The notes beneath the pieces are model-generated. The model saw nothing but the letters and a program-made list of their open reading frames with translations, did not search any database and had not been told where the DNA came from. From NCBI RefSeq assembly GCF_001936335.1, contig NZ_CP018888.1, forward strand, positions 744,001 to 808,000: DNA of 64,000 nucleotides. Direction: 5' to 3'. This document shows, one piece after another, positions 43,443-52,462 of this stretch. The translations under genes were made by a program, and so were the position numbers. Origin of the DNA: Amylolactobacillus amylophilus DSM 20533 = JCM 1125. Lineage in GTDB: Bacteria; Bacillota; Bacilli; Lactobacillales; Lactobacillaceae. Numbering within the stretch: position 1 is the stretch's first letter; the number at the start of each line of letters is the position of its first letter.

Positions 43443-43515
43443 TGGACCTTAGCGGATTTGAACCGCTGACCTCTTGCATGCGAAGCAAGCGCTCTCCCAA
43501 CTGAGCTAAAAGCCC
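43443..43515 (-). tRNA. tRNA-Ala (anticodon CGC)
   Basis: 73 bases on the minus strand fold into a full cloverleaf: acceptor stem GGGCTTT/AAGGTCC, D arm GCTC...GAGC, anticodon stem CTTGC/GCAAG with loop TTCGCAT (anticodon CGC, reads GCG), T arm AGCGG/CCGCT with TTCAAAT. The third acceptor pair is G-U, the alanine identity element. Discriminator A73. The 3' CCA is not encoded. Confidence 0.93.
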
Positions 43516-43572: not shown

Positions 43573-43601
43573 TTGACAAATTAAACGAATAACACTAAGC
43601 T
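43573..43601 (+). promoter_or_regulatory. Promoter of the cysteine leader and cystine importer
   Basis: Consensus TTGACA (43573-43578), 17 bases, TAAGCT (43596-43601). Start predicted near 43608, giving a leader of about 235 bases before the importer gene, which contains the 34-residue peptide and the attenuator. Confidence 0.7.
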
Positions 43602-43636
43602 TAGAAAAGTTTGACAAATAAAAGGAGCGTGTTGAT

Positions 43637-43741
43637 ATGAACTCAAAACGGATGTGTTGTAAACCATTAACCAACGACGGAATGCAAAGTCCAGGTTGTT
43701 TTGGGTGTCAATGTATGCTCAATAATTGGCTTTCTCTTTAG
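43637..43741 (+). CDS. Cysteine-rich leader peptide (34 residues) of the cystine importer
   Basis: ATG 43637 with AAAGGAG 11 bases upstream. The product has five cysteines: MCC at codons 6-8 and GCFGCQC at codons 20-26, all TGT. It has no signal peptide and ends in TAG at 43739-43741. Codons 12-15 include CAACGACGG (43672-43680), an exact 9-base complement to CCGTCGTTG (43783-43791) at the foot of the downstream terminator. The TGT-TGT codons themselves lie in TGTTG (43655-43659), which can pair with CAACG. This reads as a transcription-attenuation leader sensing charged tRNA-Cys. Too short for routine annotation. Confidence 0.75.
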   Translation: MNSKRMCCKPLTNDGMQSPGCFGCQCMLNNWLSL

Positions 43742-43784
43742 TTTAAAGGGAATAAGCCCACAACTTGTCTTTGTAGTTTTTGCC

Positions 43785-43822
43785 GTCGTTGATTAGTGTT
43801 TCTAGTCGACGACTATTTTTTT
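43785..43822 (+). terminator. Attenuator terminator ahead of the cystine importer
   Basis: GTCGTTGATTAG (43785-43796) pairs along all 12 positions (two G-U) with CTAGTCGACGAC (43802-43813), then TATTTTTTT. It lies between promoter and importer, so it must be bypassed for expression. The competing antiterminator joins 43672-43679 to 43784-43791 and GCAAA (43684-43688) to TTTGC (43779-43783). Confidence 0.8.
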
Positions 43823-43841
43823 ACAAAATTTAGGAGAATTC

Positions 43842-45239
43842 ATGGAAAATATAATTGTTATTGGAATTTTATTAGTTGTCTTTGCAGCCTTATTCTGCCT
43901 GCAAAGAATGCAGAGTCATAAAGTTAATTTTAACAAATTAATTCTTATCGGCTTGTTTGGGGGAATTATGGTTGGTGTATTGATCCAGGCCCTCTTTGGT
44001 GTCAAAAGTTATGTGACTACGACCGCAGTTGATTGGATCAACATAGTTGGTACGGGCTACGTCTCGTTACTGAAAATGCTCGTAATCCCCTTGATCAGTG
44101 TTTCCCTGATTAGTGCGTTCACGCGGTTAGAAGTGACCACAAAGCTGAGAAGAATCGCGTCCAACGTGTTAGGTATTCTCTTTAGTACCACAGCGGTGGC
44201 GGCTTTGTTTGGTGTCCTATCGGTCTTTTTGTTTAAGTTACAAACAGGAACGTTTCTTAAAGGCTTAACGGCGGATAAATCTGCGCTTGCCGGACTGAGA
44301 TCCAGCCAGGCAACGGTAGCAGATCAGACTCTGCCGCAGCAACTTGTCAGTTTCCTGCCCAATAATATATTTGCCGACTTTGCTGGCACTAGGCCAACAA
44401 GCACGATTGCCGTTGTGATTTTCTCAATCATGGTGGGACTGGTCTTCCTACGGATGAAGAAAAAAAAGGTCGAGTTGGCTGCCCGGTTCACGCGGTTAAT
44501 CGAGCTCTTGAGTGAGCTAGTGATGCGCATTTTGAAAATGGTCTTGAGGCTGACGCCATATGGTGTCTTTGCCCTGATGATTAAAGCGACCGCCACTGCC
44601 AGTGCGCAGGACCTGCTGAAGCTCGGGGTTTTCATCATTGCAGCCTACTTTGCCTTGATACTGGTGTTGCTCATGCACACAGCAATCTTGCTGGTGCACG
44701 GTATTAATCCCGTAACGTATTTCAAAAAAGCTTGGCCTGCACTTGCTTTTGCATTTACATCTCGCAGTAGCGCAGGGACGCTACCATTAAACATCGAGGT
44801 TCAAACTAAATCACTTGGGGTGGCAAGCTCAGTTGCTAATTTTGCCGGCAGCTTTGGTTTAACCATGGGGCAAAATGGCTGTGCCGGTGTCTATCCGGCG
44901 ATGGTTGCGACGCTGATTGCAGCAACGAATGGTGTCAACGTATTCTCTGCGCAGTTTATTATCACATTATTGTTGATTGTGACTGTCTCCTCATTTGGTG
45001 TCGCTGGTGTTGGTGGCGGTGCAATCTTCAGTTCGCTCATTGTCCTTGGTGCCCTGAACTTACCTATTACATTGATGGGTGTGATTATTGCAATTGACCC
45101 GATCATTGACATGATGAGAACCGCAGTAAACGTGAACGACAGTATCCTTGCTGGGATTATCACGGCAAAGAAGACCGACTTGTGGGATAAAGAAGTCTTT
45201 ACTGATCAGAGCGATACAATTAACGTTACTGAGAATTAA
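43842..45239 (+). CDS. tcyP: L-cystine/dicarboxylate symporter of the DAACS family (TcyP-like)
   Basis: 465-residue secondary importer with about eight membrane helices and two re-entrant loops: SLLKMLVIPLISVSLISAF (near 72-90), SRSSAGTLPLNIEV (serine-rich hairpin near 308-321) and MGQNGCAGVYPAMVATL with the substrate-site helix. The TcyP/YhcL branch takes up cystine. The cysteine-rich leader and attenuator ahead of it independently support that substrate. TAGGAG precedes ATG 43842. Confidence 0.85.
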   Translation: MENIIVIGILLVVFAALFCLQRMQSHKVNFNKLILIGLFGGIMVGVLIQALFGVKSYVTTTAVDWINIVGTGYVSLLKMLVIPLISVSLISAFTRLEVTTKLRRIASNVLGILFSTTAVAALFGVLSVFLFKLQTGTFLKGLTADKSALAGLRSSQATVADQTLPQQLVSFLPNNIFADFAGTRPTSTIAVVIFSIMVGLVFLRMKKKKVELAARFTRLIELLSELVMRILKMVLRLTPYGVFALMIKATATASAQDLLKLGVFIIAAYFALILVLLMHTAILLVHGINPVTYFKKAWPALAFAFTSRSSAGTLPLNIEVQTKSLGVASSVANFAGSFGLTMGQNGCAGVYPAMVATLIAATNGVNVFSAQFIITLLLIVTVSSFGVAGVGGGAIFSSLIVLGALNLPITLMGVIIAIDPIIDMMRTAVNVNDSILAGIITAKKTDLWDKEVFTDQSDTINVTEN

Positions 45240-51189: not shown

Positions 51190-52338
51190 TTACGCCTCTT
51201 TTTTGATGAAATAATTCATGATAAACGGAGAAAGCAGCGTGGTTAAGATAATAACGATAATCACGCTCGAGTAGACAGATTGCGGAAAGAGGTGAGCACC
51301 AATCCCGATTTGAGCGATGATTAAAGCCATTTCGCCACGAGAAATCATCCCACTACCAACAACGTTTGCGTCACGCTTCGAGAATTTAAACAGTTGAGCA
51401 CCGATTGTGCCACCATAGAACTTTGTTAATAATGCAAGTACGCTCAGGAGAACAATCAGCCAGATATTCTTGCCGATACCTGTGAAGGTCATCGACAGGC
51501 CAATTGACGTGAAGAAGACGGGGATGAAAACGGAGTAGCCAATCGCACTAACGGCATTTTGAACCTCCTTGAATTGTGGAGTCTGCCGGATAGCCAGACC
51601 ACCGAAGAAGGCACCCACGACGGCGCTGAGGCCGACTAAATCTGCGGCGAATGCCATGCCAAATGCGAGGATGAGGGATGCAATCACCACAGAAAAGTCC
51701 AGTTCGAGGCGCTCTGCCCACCGCATCACGTATGGCGCGACAAACTTGAAGATGAACCAGACAACAATGAAGTAGGTGATTTCGAGGATTGTATTGAAAA
51801 GTAGGCTGTCTGTTGGCCCTGAGCTGCCCTCGTGGGAGAATGTCGTGAAGAGACTGAGAACGATGACCGCGAGAATATCGTCGACGACGGCAGCACCTAA
51901 AATGGTGGTTCCGGACTTACTACTCATCTCGTCGAAGTCTTTCAATACCTCAACTGAGATGGAAACGCTGGTCGCGGCGAAGACAATCCCGATGAACAGA
52001 CTTTCTAGGAGGTTCATGCCGAAGAGGGAGGTTGCGATACCGATGAATACGACTGGGAAAAGCACGCCAAGTAGGGCAACGGTCATGCTCGGCTTAAAGA
52101 ACTTTTTCAGTAGGCCAAGGTCGCTTTCGATTCCCGCGAGGAACATGAGTAGGATGACTCCTAATTCGGCGAACAAGTCAATGGTCTCCCCGGGTTTGAT
52201 GAAACCGAGTAAGGCTGGTCCTAAGATAATACCCGCCAACAATTGACCGATCACGGCCGGTAGGTTCAGGCGGACGAAGATTTGGCCTAAGAGACTGGTG
52301 GTGAGCAAGATGACGATTAAGCTGCCGATAAATTCCAT
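51190..52338 (-). CDS. CPA2-family Na+(K+)/H+ antiporter (NapA-like)
   Basis: 382 residues, about 12-13 membrane helices, MEFIGSLIVILLTTSLLGQ start, conserved ion-site segment LGAAVVDDILAVIVL with the paired aspartates (near 147-148) and FGMAFAADLVGLSAVVGAFFGGL. No C-terminal RCK domain. Homologues confer Na+ or pH tolerance. Preceded by its own promoter and a hairpin with terminator features. Confidence 0.88.
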   Translation of the reverse strand: MEFIGSLIVILLTTSLLGQIFVRLNLPAVIGQLLAGIILGPALLGFIKPGETIDLFAELGVILLMFLAGIESDLGLLKKFFKPSMTVALLGVLFPVVFIGIATSLFGMNLLESLFIGIVFAATSVSISVEVLKDFDEMSSKSGTTILGAAVVDDILAVIVLSLFTTFSHEGSSGPTDSLLFNTILEITYFIVVWFIFKFVAPYVMRWAERLELDFSVVIASLILAFGMAFAADLVGLSAVVGAFFGGLAIRQTPQFKEVQNAVSAIGYSVFIPVFFTSIGLSMTFTGIGKNIWLIVLLSVLALLTKFYGGTIGAQLFKFSKRDANVVGSGMISRGEMALIIAQIGIGAHLFPQSVYSSVIIVIILTTLLSPFIMNYFIKKEA

Positions 52339-52368: not shown

Positions 52369-52422
52369 AAAAAAATACCTTCAAGATAACCTACCCACCC
52401 AGGTAAGTCGGATTCTTGAAGG
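52369..52422 (-). promoter_or_regulatory. Structured leader with terminator ahead of napA-like gene
   Basis: Minus strand CCTTCAAGA (52422-52414) pairs with TCTTGAAGG (52386-52378) followed by TATTTTTTT. Inside is a G-rich segment (CTGGGTGGGTAGG) and a smaller stem. It lies downstream of a good promoter and upstream of the antiporter, but could also just terminate the P-type ATPase transcript. Confidence 0.55.
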
Positions 52423-52462
52423 CAGTTTAATTACCCCAACCGTTTGATTTCTAATGGAAATA

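Follow-up and report, generated by a model that had tools for sequence, protein, structure and literature searches.

A cysteine-codon leader before a TcyP-like importer gene of Amylolactobacillus amylophilus, a probable transcription attenuator with counterparts in other Lactobacillaceae

The importer gene and its leader

We analysed a window of 64 kb of DNA (64,000 nucleotides) from Amylolactobacillus amylophilus DSM 20533 = JCM 1125 (contig NZ_CP018888.1, positions 744,001 to 808,000), in which a gene for a TcyP-like cystine importer is preceded by a short frame with cysteine codons and by an intrinsic terminator (Table 1; positions are those of the window). Taking into account all the evidence given below, this leader is very probably a cysteine-sensing transcription attenuator of the ribosome-mediated kind. 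The locus contains the frame, its Cys codons, the terminator, and an antiterminator that is mutually exclusive with the terminator and lies far beyond chance. As judged by sequence comparison, the same anatomy recurs before genes of cysteine import and synthesis, with covariation in the best populated branch.

Table 1. Features of the leader and of the importer gene, in order of position in the window
Feature	Position	Strand	Remarks
Candidate promoter	43573-43601	+	-35 TTGACA 43573-43578; spacer 17 nucleotides; weak -10 TAAGCT 43596-43601
Leader ribosome-binding site AAAGGAG	43621-43627	+	read from sequence; ATG nine bases further on
Predicted hairpin hiding the ribosome-binding site	43625-43721	+	43625-43636 with 43708-43721; -26.8 kcal/mol
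Leader peptide frame	43637-43741	+	ATG 43637; 34 codons; stop TAG 43739-43741
Cys codons 7-8 (TGTTGT)	43655-43660	+	likely sensor; possible weak protector strand against 43674-43679
Antiterminator 5' strand CATTAACCAACGACGG	43665-43680	+	pairing, shuffle test, folding
Second Cys cluster, codons 21, 24, 26 (CFGCQC)	43697-43714	+	within antiterminator hairpin
Antiterminator 3' strand CCGTCGTTGATTAGTG	43783-43798	+	overlaps the entire 5' arm of the terminator
Intrinsic terminator	43785-43822	+	12-pair stem 43785-43796/43802-43813; T-rich tail 43814-43822
TcyP-like cystine importer	43842-45239	+	SDF family; 465 aa; PF00375, E 2.8e-93

The leader frame translates into MNSKRMCCKPLTNDGMQSPGCFGCQCMLNNWLSL, with TGT codons at 43655, 43658, 43697, 43706, and 43712. 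A previous interpretation made from the letters of the window (the sequence-only reading) had described the frame, its five Cys codons and the AAAGGAG, all of which can be read directly in the sequence, and had placed a 12-bp terminator just before the importer, in agreement with the stem and the PF00375 open reading frame (ORF) of Table 1. The importer start codon lies 28 bases 3' of the end of the terminator stem (43813). Considering both strands of the window, this was the sole frame of 8-60 codons that had a Shine-Dalgarno- (SD-) like site, a CC pair, and at least 4 Cys. The terminator scan of the window gave 3 hits where 2.5 were expected and is by itself no evidence. The leader peptide had no match in Pfam or NCBIfam. 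A tRNA-Ala gene (43443-43515) is located upstream of the leader frame on the other strand.

Of the promoter that had been proposed, the TTGACA was found in place, while the correctly spaced -10 is a poor one and the promoter scan had no entry for the site. The -10 is covered by the palindrome CTAAGCTTAG (43595-43604). Among the loci compared (L numbers), the like place has CCAAGCTTAG in L002 and CTAAGCTTG in L003, yet CCAAGTTTAG in L136-L138; the palindrome may be an operator or merely a shared -10.

By its sequence, the predicted importer is an SDF-family symporter close to annotated cystine transporters, with about 44-53% identity to plasmid-borne relatives annotated as L-cystine transporter or tcyP. 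No NCBIfam model matched it at the cut-off, and none for TcyP, so the substrate label "cystine" rests on the annotations of those relatives. In the genome of the window (G000, 1.61 Mb, 99.95% complete) there was no match to the PALP family (cysteine synthase, cystathionine beta-synthase, tryptophan synthase beta, and others), which was matched in 14/14 control genomes. The organism presumably has neither cysteine synthase nor cystathionine beta-synthase, and its cysteine probably comes from outside; a dependence on import is therefore probable, which fits with an importer under cysteine control. The loci around six SBP_bac_3 genes of this genome gave no further plausible Cys leader. One frame near an SBP_bac_3 gene in L140 was rejected as a Cys leader, being implausible and downstream of the gene.

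Alternative structures of the leader RNA

Within the leader frame, CAACGACGG (43672-43680) is an exact 9-base complement of 43783-43791, as the sequence-only reading had pointed out. The extension by GCAAA/TTTGC that it had added to these nine pairs is impossible alongside them because C43783 would be used again, being already paired with G43680; the antiterminator extends on the other side, where CATTAA (43665-43670) faces TTAGTG (43793-43798). The complete helix (43665-43680/43783-43798) has 15 pairs and one C/A mismatch. It takes up the 5' arm of the terminator completely, and the antiterminator and the terminator are mutually exclusive.

The antiterminator duplex was calculated at -20.5 kcal/mol, against a mean of -11.3 in dinucleotide shuffles, of which 0/400 were as strong. 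The hairpin of 134 nucleotides (nt) that it closes (43665-43798) folded at -49.5 against -27.4 in the shuffles (z -6.2, 0/200), and the entire leader (43605-43813) at -57.5 against -44.9 (z -3.0, 1/200). A coincidence, in which a chance frame with Cys codons meets a chance complementarity, would be helped by the shortness of the frame and by the want of a close homologue of this leader, but it has to face the 0/400 and 0/200 shuffles and the recurrence of the arrangement before the same gene in other genera; we give it next to no credence.

The TGT-TGT segment had also been said to pair with the antiterminator strand. The pairing of codons 7-8 with ACGACG (43674-43679) is possible and weak, with -3.2 kcal/mol for 43653-43682. 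In the untranslated leader, before the terminator is transcribed, folding predicts the hairpin that hides the SD (Table 1).

The influence of translation was modelled by placing a 31-nt ribosome at several leader codons and folding the RNA at equilibrium. With the polymerase at 43800, the antiterminator formed fully when no ribosome was present, and its nine-pair part formed when a ribosome was stalled at codons 7-8. A ribosome at codon 15 prevented the antiterminator from forming, and for a ribosome at codons 21-26 or at the stop it formed only if pairing across the ribosome was allowed.

Cysteine-codon leaders before other import and synthesis genes

TcyP homologues were collected at E 1e-100 (34/397 genomes of the family), and genus searches added loci. 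This gave 37 Lactobacillaceae TcyP loci (L001-L007, L009, L031-L052, and L133-L139). By hand count, a Cys-rich leader frame with an SD and a terminator hairpin stood before TcyP in 25 of the 37, that of the window included; all these hairpins were folded or aligned, with single mismatches in L043, L044, and L138. Four loci (L031, L032, L040, and L041) had, instead of the Cys leader, a T-box motif recognised as a pattern, which reached the Rfam T-box threshold in L040 and not in the other three. The flanks were incomplete in 2 loci (L034 and L042), and neither leader nor T-box was seen in 6. TcyP is therefore preceded by a T-box motif in certain genera and by a Cys leader in others. Outside these four Lactobacillaceae loci, Streptococcus devriesei L075 also reached the Rfam T-box threshold.

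The T-box pattern in 4/37 loci, the two loci at the Rfam threshold (L040 and L075) and the palindrome CTAAGCTTAG, which could be an operator, would all suit a known sensor in the window leader, be it a T-box, a riboswitch, or a repressor of the CymR or CmbR type. Against this, the window leader had no Rfam match at the gathering level, T-box (RF00230) included, and up to E 5 its lone match was CopA on the opposite strand, with 14.8 bits where the threshold is 60; a known sensor is in our opinion highly unlikely there. The leaders of 16 other loci scanned (six plus ten) had no Rfam match.

Across genera, the sets of TcyP leaders (g numbers) have almost nothing in common but the Cys run. The leader is NVRQANSCCCNCQK in g37, and that of Lactobacillus hominis L055 is the same as in L048; it is MKMCCCLISV in g5, and Pediococcus acidilactici L071 has the same leader as L047. 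In g13 the leaders are QMMCCCQQ and EMMCCCMM, in g27 LACCCTCYML, and in g6 they range from SAACCACCANAN to NPCCPCCAEM. One extra A after CCCNC in L044 shifts the frame and changes the remaining peptide, the RNA being otherwise kept.

These sequences bear on the idea that the RNA switch is the same but the sensor is the nascent Cys-rich peptide, arrested by a ligand, a metal or thiol oxidation and not by uncharged Cys-tRNA. With clusters as dense as CC, CFGCQC, CCxCC, and CCCNC, metal binding or disulfide formation would be conceivable. The sequence of an arrest peptide is normally under constraint, whereas here the residues around Cys vary between genera and the frameshift of L044 alters the downstream peptide; moreover, the genes found here behind such leaders are those of cysteine import and synthesis. 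We consider a peptide sensor improbable.

In a strict automatic scan, 132 TcyP upstream regions gave 21 Cys clusters, compared with 0 on the reverse strand and 0-3 in 20 shuffles; two of the 21 (L041 and L097) look spurious and two (L055 and L071) repeat other loci. The antiterminator energy was tested for 14 of the 25 TcyP leaders, and four went beyond the shuffles (L001 and L037, 0/400; L049, 0.005; L003, 0.010); in the g6, g37, and Pediococcus-type leaders tested the energies were not above shuffles. When 11 rows of g37 were aligned, 99.1% of the cells of the antiterminator helix were paired. There was one two-sided pair change, in 2/11 rows that are related, which is probably a single event; the covariation score was reached by 12/500 shuffles and the number of two-sided pairs by 169/500. 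In the two divergent rows of g37, the SD helix could not be aligned.

It was also possible to see a second small frame, similar to RLVKLLGKHRGGQTC, between the terminator and the TcyP gene of L045, L046, and L047, which the Pediococcus-type loci share with one locus of g37. A different small frame (MAGQCWHKF) occupies this position in L003 and L037. Such frames are possibly a translational layer. The terminator loop GTGCGCGCAC is invariant in six g6 leaders (L002, L033, and L136-L139) with varying flanks, an invariance that exceeds what a terminator needs.

For the synthesis genes, a TIGR01136 profile search of 201 family genomes gave two groups, under and over the curated cut-off. From the 48 places under the cut-off, 40 upstream stretches were taken as of the cysK2/cystathionine-synthase type, a label that gene order backs only in L220, L221, and L223. 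The strict leader finder asked for a frame that follows an SD and contains three Cys within four residues. It found a Cys leader before 26/40, each with a terminator-like hairpin behind, while any other amino acid gave at most 3/40 and the reverse strand 0; looser Cys frames upstream of cysK2 in L195, L209, and L212 are outside the 26. From the 43 places over the cut-off, 30 loci were taken, 28 of them with full flanks, and Cys leaders were found upstream of metA-like/cysK pairs in 12/28 (no other amino acid exceeded 6, and the reverse strand gave 0). These leaders stand one gene above cysK, before an ORF that we take to be a metA-like acetyltransferase, and directly before cysK, within 600 nt, there were 0/28. 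A T-run within 200 nt, identified by pattern, followed 11 of the 12, L147 being the one without it. In cysK loci from other families of the order (the best-scoring 30 minus 4 with incomplete flanks) the count was 0/26 both within 600 nt and within 1500 nt, and therefore we make no claim of order-wide spread.

Antiterminator complementarity was calculated for 28 distinct leaders, that is, the cysK2 set plus four plasmid loci, with two repeated peptides dropped. The mean z was -2.8, and p was at most 0.03 in 19/28; the combined score of -14.9 is no probability because the rows are related.

Covariation was evaluated in 13 of the 26 cysK2 leaders (12 distinct), chosen as alignable, with the helices taken from L203. 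The antiterminator helix was paired in 92.3%, with three two-sided pairs and a covariation score that exceeded every one of the 500 shuffles. For a local hairpin immediately after the Cys codons the figure was 91.7%, with two two-sided pairs (a number reached by 378/500 shuffles) and covariation above 500/500 shuffles, and for the terminator it was 91.0%, with eight two-sided pairs, which 0/500 shuffles reached. With slid controls the pairing was 31-53% for the antiterminator, 22-56% for the local hairpin, and 31-54% for the terminator. In the shared arm, column 156 changes from G to A together with column 184 from C to U, and column 61 stays paired throughout (U-G, U-A, C-G). In L202 the columns 60, 157, and 183 are all changed, that is, the arm base and both competing partners. 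Such joint changes are expected of two structures that compete for one arm. The local hairpin, seen to covary in this cysK2 alignment only, begins inside the last Cys codon and would therefore be opened by a ribosome that stalls on the Cys run.

One member of the cysteine-synthesis type has expression data. The plasmid pFAM18149.25 of L. paracasei FAM18149 carries a cysK2-ctl1-cysE2 operon, upstream of which we found an SD, the leader M(M)SQSMFNAINCCCRTTRFWRCSAC, and then the terminator AAGGGCGCGAAAATTCTGGATTTCAGAATTTCGCGCCC-T5. According to the study of this strain (PMC6004538; this and the other articles cited are represented by the accessible parts of their text), the operon is higher in cysteine-deficient medium, its genes showing log2 values of -2.9 to -3.2 in methionine-deficient versus cysteine-deficient medium. 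The 5'-UTR (5' untranslated region) of the operon had high coverage, no T-box was found, a terminator was proposed over the palindrome GGGCGCGAA, and the mechanism was said to be "yet to be discovered" (PMC6004538). The SD, a leader with NCCCR and the GGGCGCGAA palindrome as terminator make the same set as in our leaders. In that study the terminator and the cysteine response were seen, but no leader peptide was named, the term "leader peptide" having 0 occurrences in the accessible text (PMC6004538).

Plasmids of L. casei ATCC 393, L. fermentum DR9, and E. faecalis have similar leaders upstream of a gene for cysteine synthase. The E. faecalis one is on record as a hypothetical protein, WP_002355203.1 (L223, 1259-1396): this Cys leader reads ETESCCCMVQ and is followed by a terminator and then by the cysteine synthase gene.

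The frame could also code for a small protein with a function of its own, such as metal binding, and be followed by an ordinary upstream terminator. This would agree with the good SD, the complete frame, and the annotation of the E. faecalis relative. It agrees poorly with the lack of a Pfam or NCBIfam match for the window peptide and of a Pfam match for two relatives, with the conservation of little but Cys across genera, and with the antiterminator complementarity and covariation; we hold this explanation to be very improbable.

Mechanism and relation to known systems

The claim that this is a Cys-codon leader-peptide attenuator of a cystine importer is thus backed by the comparison of the TcyP and cysteine-synthesis leaders. 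In the mechanism we propose for the window, the leader frame would be translated while the RNA is made, and scarcity of Cys-tRNA would stall the first ribosome at Cys codons 7-8. Its footprint of about 31 nt would cover the RNA up to 43668-43671 and leave 43672-43680 free, so stalling would free CAACGACGG. During the stall the helices inside 43681-43782 would zip up, and the free strand would capture the emerging 5' arm of the terminator, letting the polymerase read into the importer gene. With ample cysteine, the ribosome would pass the antiterminator strand to the stop at 43739 and break the inner helices, and the local terminator hairpin would form first. We infer that stalling at Cys codons is the signal and that starvation means ON, so that the importer gene would be turned on by lack of cysteine; codons 7-8, and not 21-26, would be decisive.

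Several results weigh against this mechanism. With the RNA extended to 43813 and the ribosome stalled at codons 7-8, the terminator held 0.55-0.84 and the antiterminator 0.32-0.49 at equilibrium, the untranslated leader favoured read-through (antiterminator 0.76), and the antiterminator won at 0.92 for a ribosome placed at the stop codon, unless pairing across the ribosome was forbidden. If such pairing is forbidden, the antiterminator would also be broken by a ribosome stalled at the second Cys cluster. The leader stop codon is about 60 nt beyond the antiterminator strand. By itself the equilibrium model does not yield an off state. It would fit the proposed logic only if the outcome depends on which structure forms first and if RNA on the two sides of a ribosome pairs slowly. 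The direction of control was therefore taken from precedent and from the L. paracasei member.

The comparison adds others. The 132 TcyP regions also gave 27 Leu and 18 Ser clusters, so the Cys count alone is not specific in that scan, and the window's own leader fails its strict cluster rule. No close relative of the window leader was present among the sequences compared; in the single congener compared (G001, 65% complete), both the leader DNA and a close homologue of TcyP were missing. Ten of the 14 TcyP antiterminators tested (L002, L136, L139, L006, L035, L048, L135, and L045-L047) were no stronger than shuffles (p 0.13-0.87), nor were 9/28 of the cysK2 and plasmid set, including L. paracasei (p 0.29) and L. 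casei (0.71). In the cysK2 alignment, two of the five antiterminator measures were within the shuffles (two-sided pairs 108/500, further pair types 331/500), a slide of -2 gave 4 two-sided pairs against 3 for the true register, and the structure was derived from one of the aligned rows (L203).

Extending the attenuator to other genomes, we lean towards a broader reading, in which Lactobacillaceae and at least one Enterococcus have the entire cysteine regulon under Cys-codon attenuators that arose or were rebuilt several times and replaced the Cys T-box. It covers TcyP import, the methionine-to-cysteine conversion of cysK2-ctl-cysE, and the metA-like/cysK synthesis. The leaders would have little in common except their Cys codons and an RNA topology with three alternatives (three-way), and some would use their own SD or Cys codons as the protector strand.

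The classical leader-peptide attenuators of Proteobacteria, of the trp and his type, have a short frame rich in the regulated amino acid, followed by terminator and antiterminator alternatives. The window leader is alike in these two features; trp/his-type attenuators are mentioned in PMC3766115. It differs in its Cys codons, its occurrence in Lactobacillales, the importer as target, the 134-nt antiterminator hairpin, and the position of the antiterminator strand, which lies within the frame and about 60 nt ahead of its stop codon. The polycysteine frames of mycobacteria are reportedly leaderless, going by the title of the work of Canestrari in 2020, and the SD nine bases before the ATG (43621-43627) would set the window frame apart from that type. 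Translational control has been proposed for mycobacterial polycysteine frames (PMC13236596). Leader frames with runs of Cys codons are also described for the cys operons of Mycobacterium and Propionibacterium and for cbs of Bifidobacterium, but these have no conserved terminator hairpin in the account given, which proposes Rho-dependent control (PMC1262725). The uORFC-8-2 motif, before cysS of Rhodobacterales (Alphaproteobacteria), shares with the window a small upstream frame that has two Cys codons in tandem, a U-run terminator and presumed stalling; it has its own two-stem consensus and its target is cysS, with no importer or cysteine synthesis gene, whereas in the window the target is an SDF-family importer (PMC8632094). 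The histidine leader peptides before hisS/hisZ paralogues in bacilli are alike in being regular leader-peptide attenuation in Firmicutes instead of a T-box, and unlike in the amino acid and in acting on tRNA-synthetase paralogues (PMC2965389).

Among the matches listed from the open-licence literature and in its accessible passages, no cysteine leader-peptide attenuation in Lactobacillales was found. Together with the lack of an Rfam match, this suggests a known kind of mechanism and an apparently undescribed regulon. If it is true, cysteine and lactic acid bacteria join the short list of leader-peptide attenuation in Firmicutes, and many small frames, one of them on record as a hypothetical protein, have been pointed to. 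For genes that lack a T-box, the attenuator offers a concrete and testable idea of how cysteine may be sensed in lactobacilli, and these genes would include an operon in a cheese bacterium for whose cysteine response the accessible text gave no explanation (PMC6004538).

Elsewhere in the window, a Na+ riboswitch aptamer (RF03071) was detected over threshold at 52389-52441 on the minus strand, with 44.3 bits, about 50 bases before an ORF of 382 aa (51190-52338). From its sequence only, we take this ORF to resemble a cation/proton antiporter.

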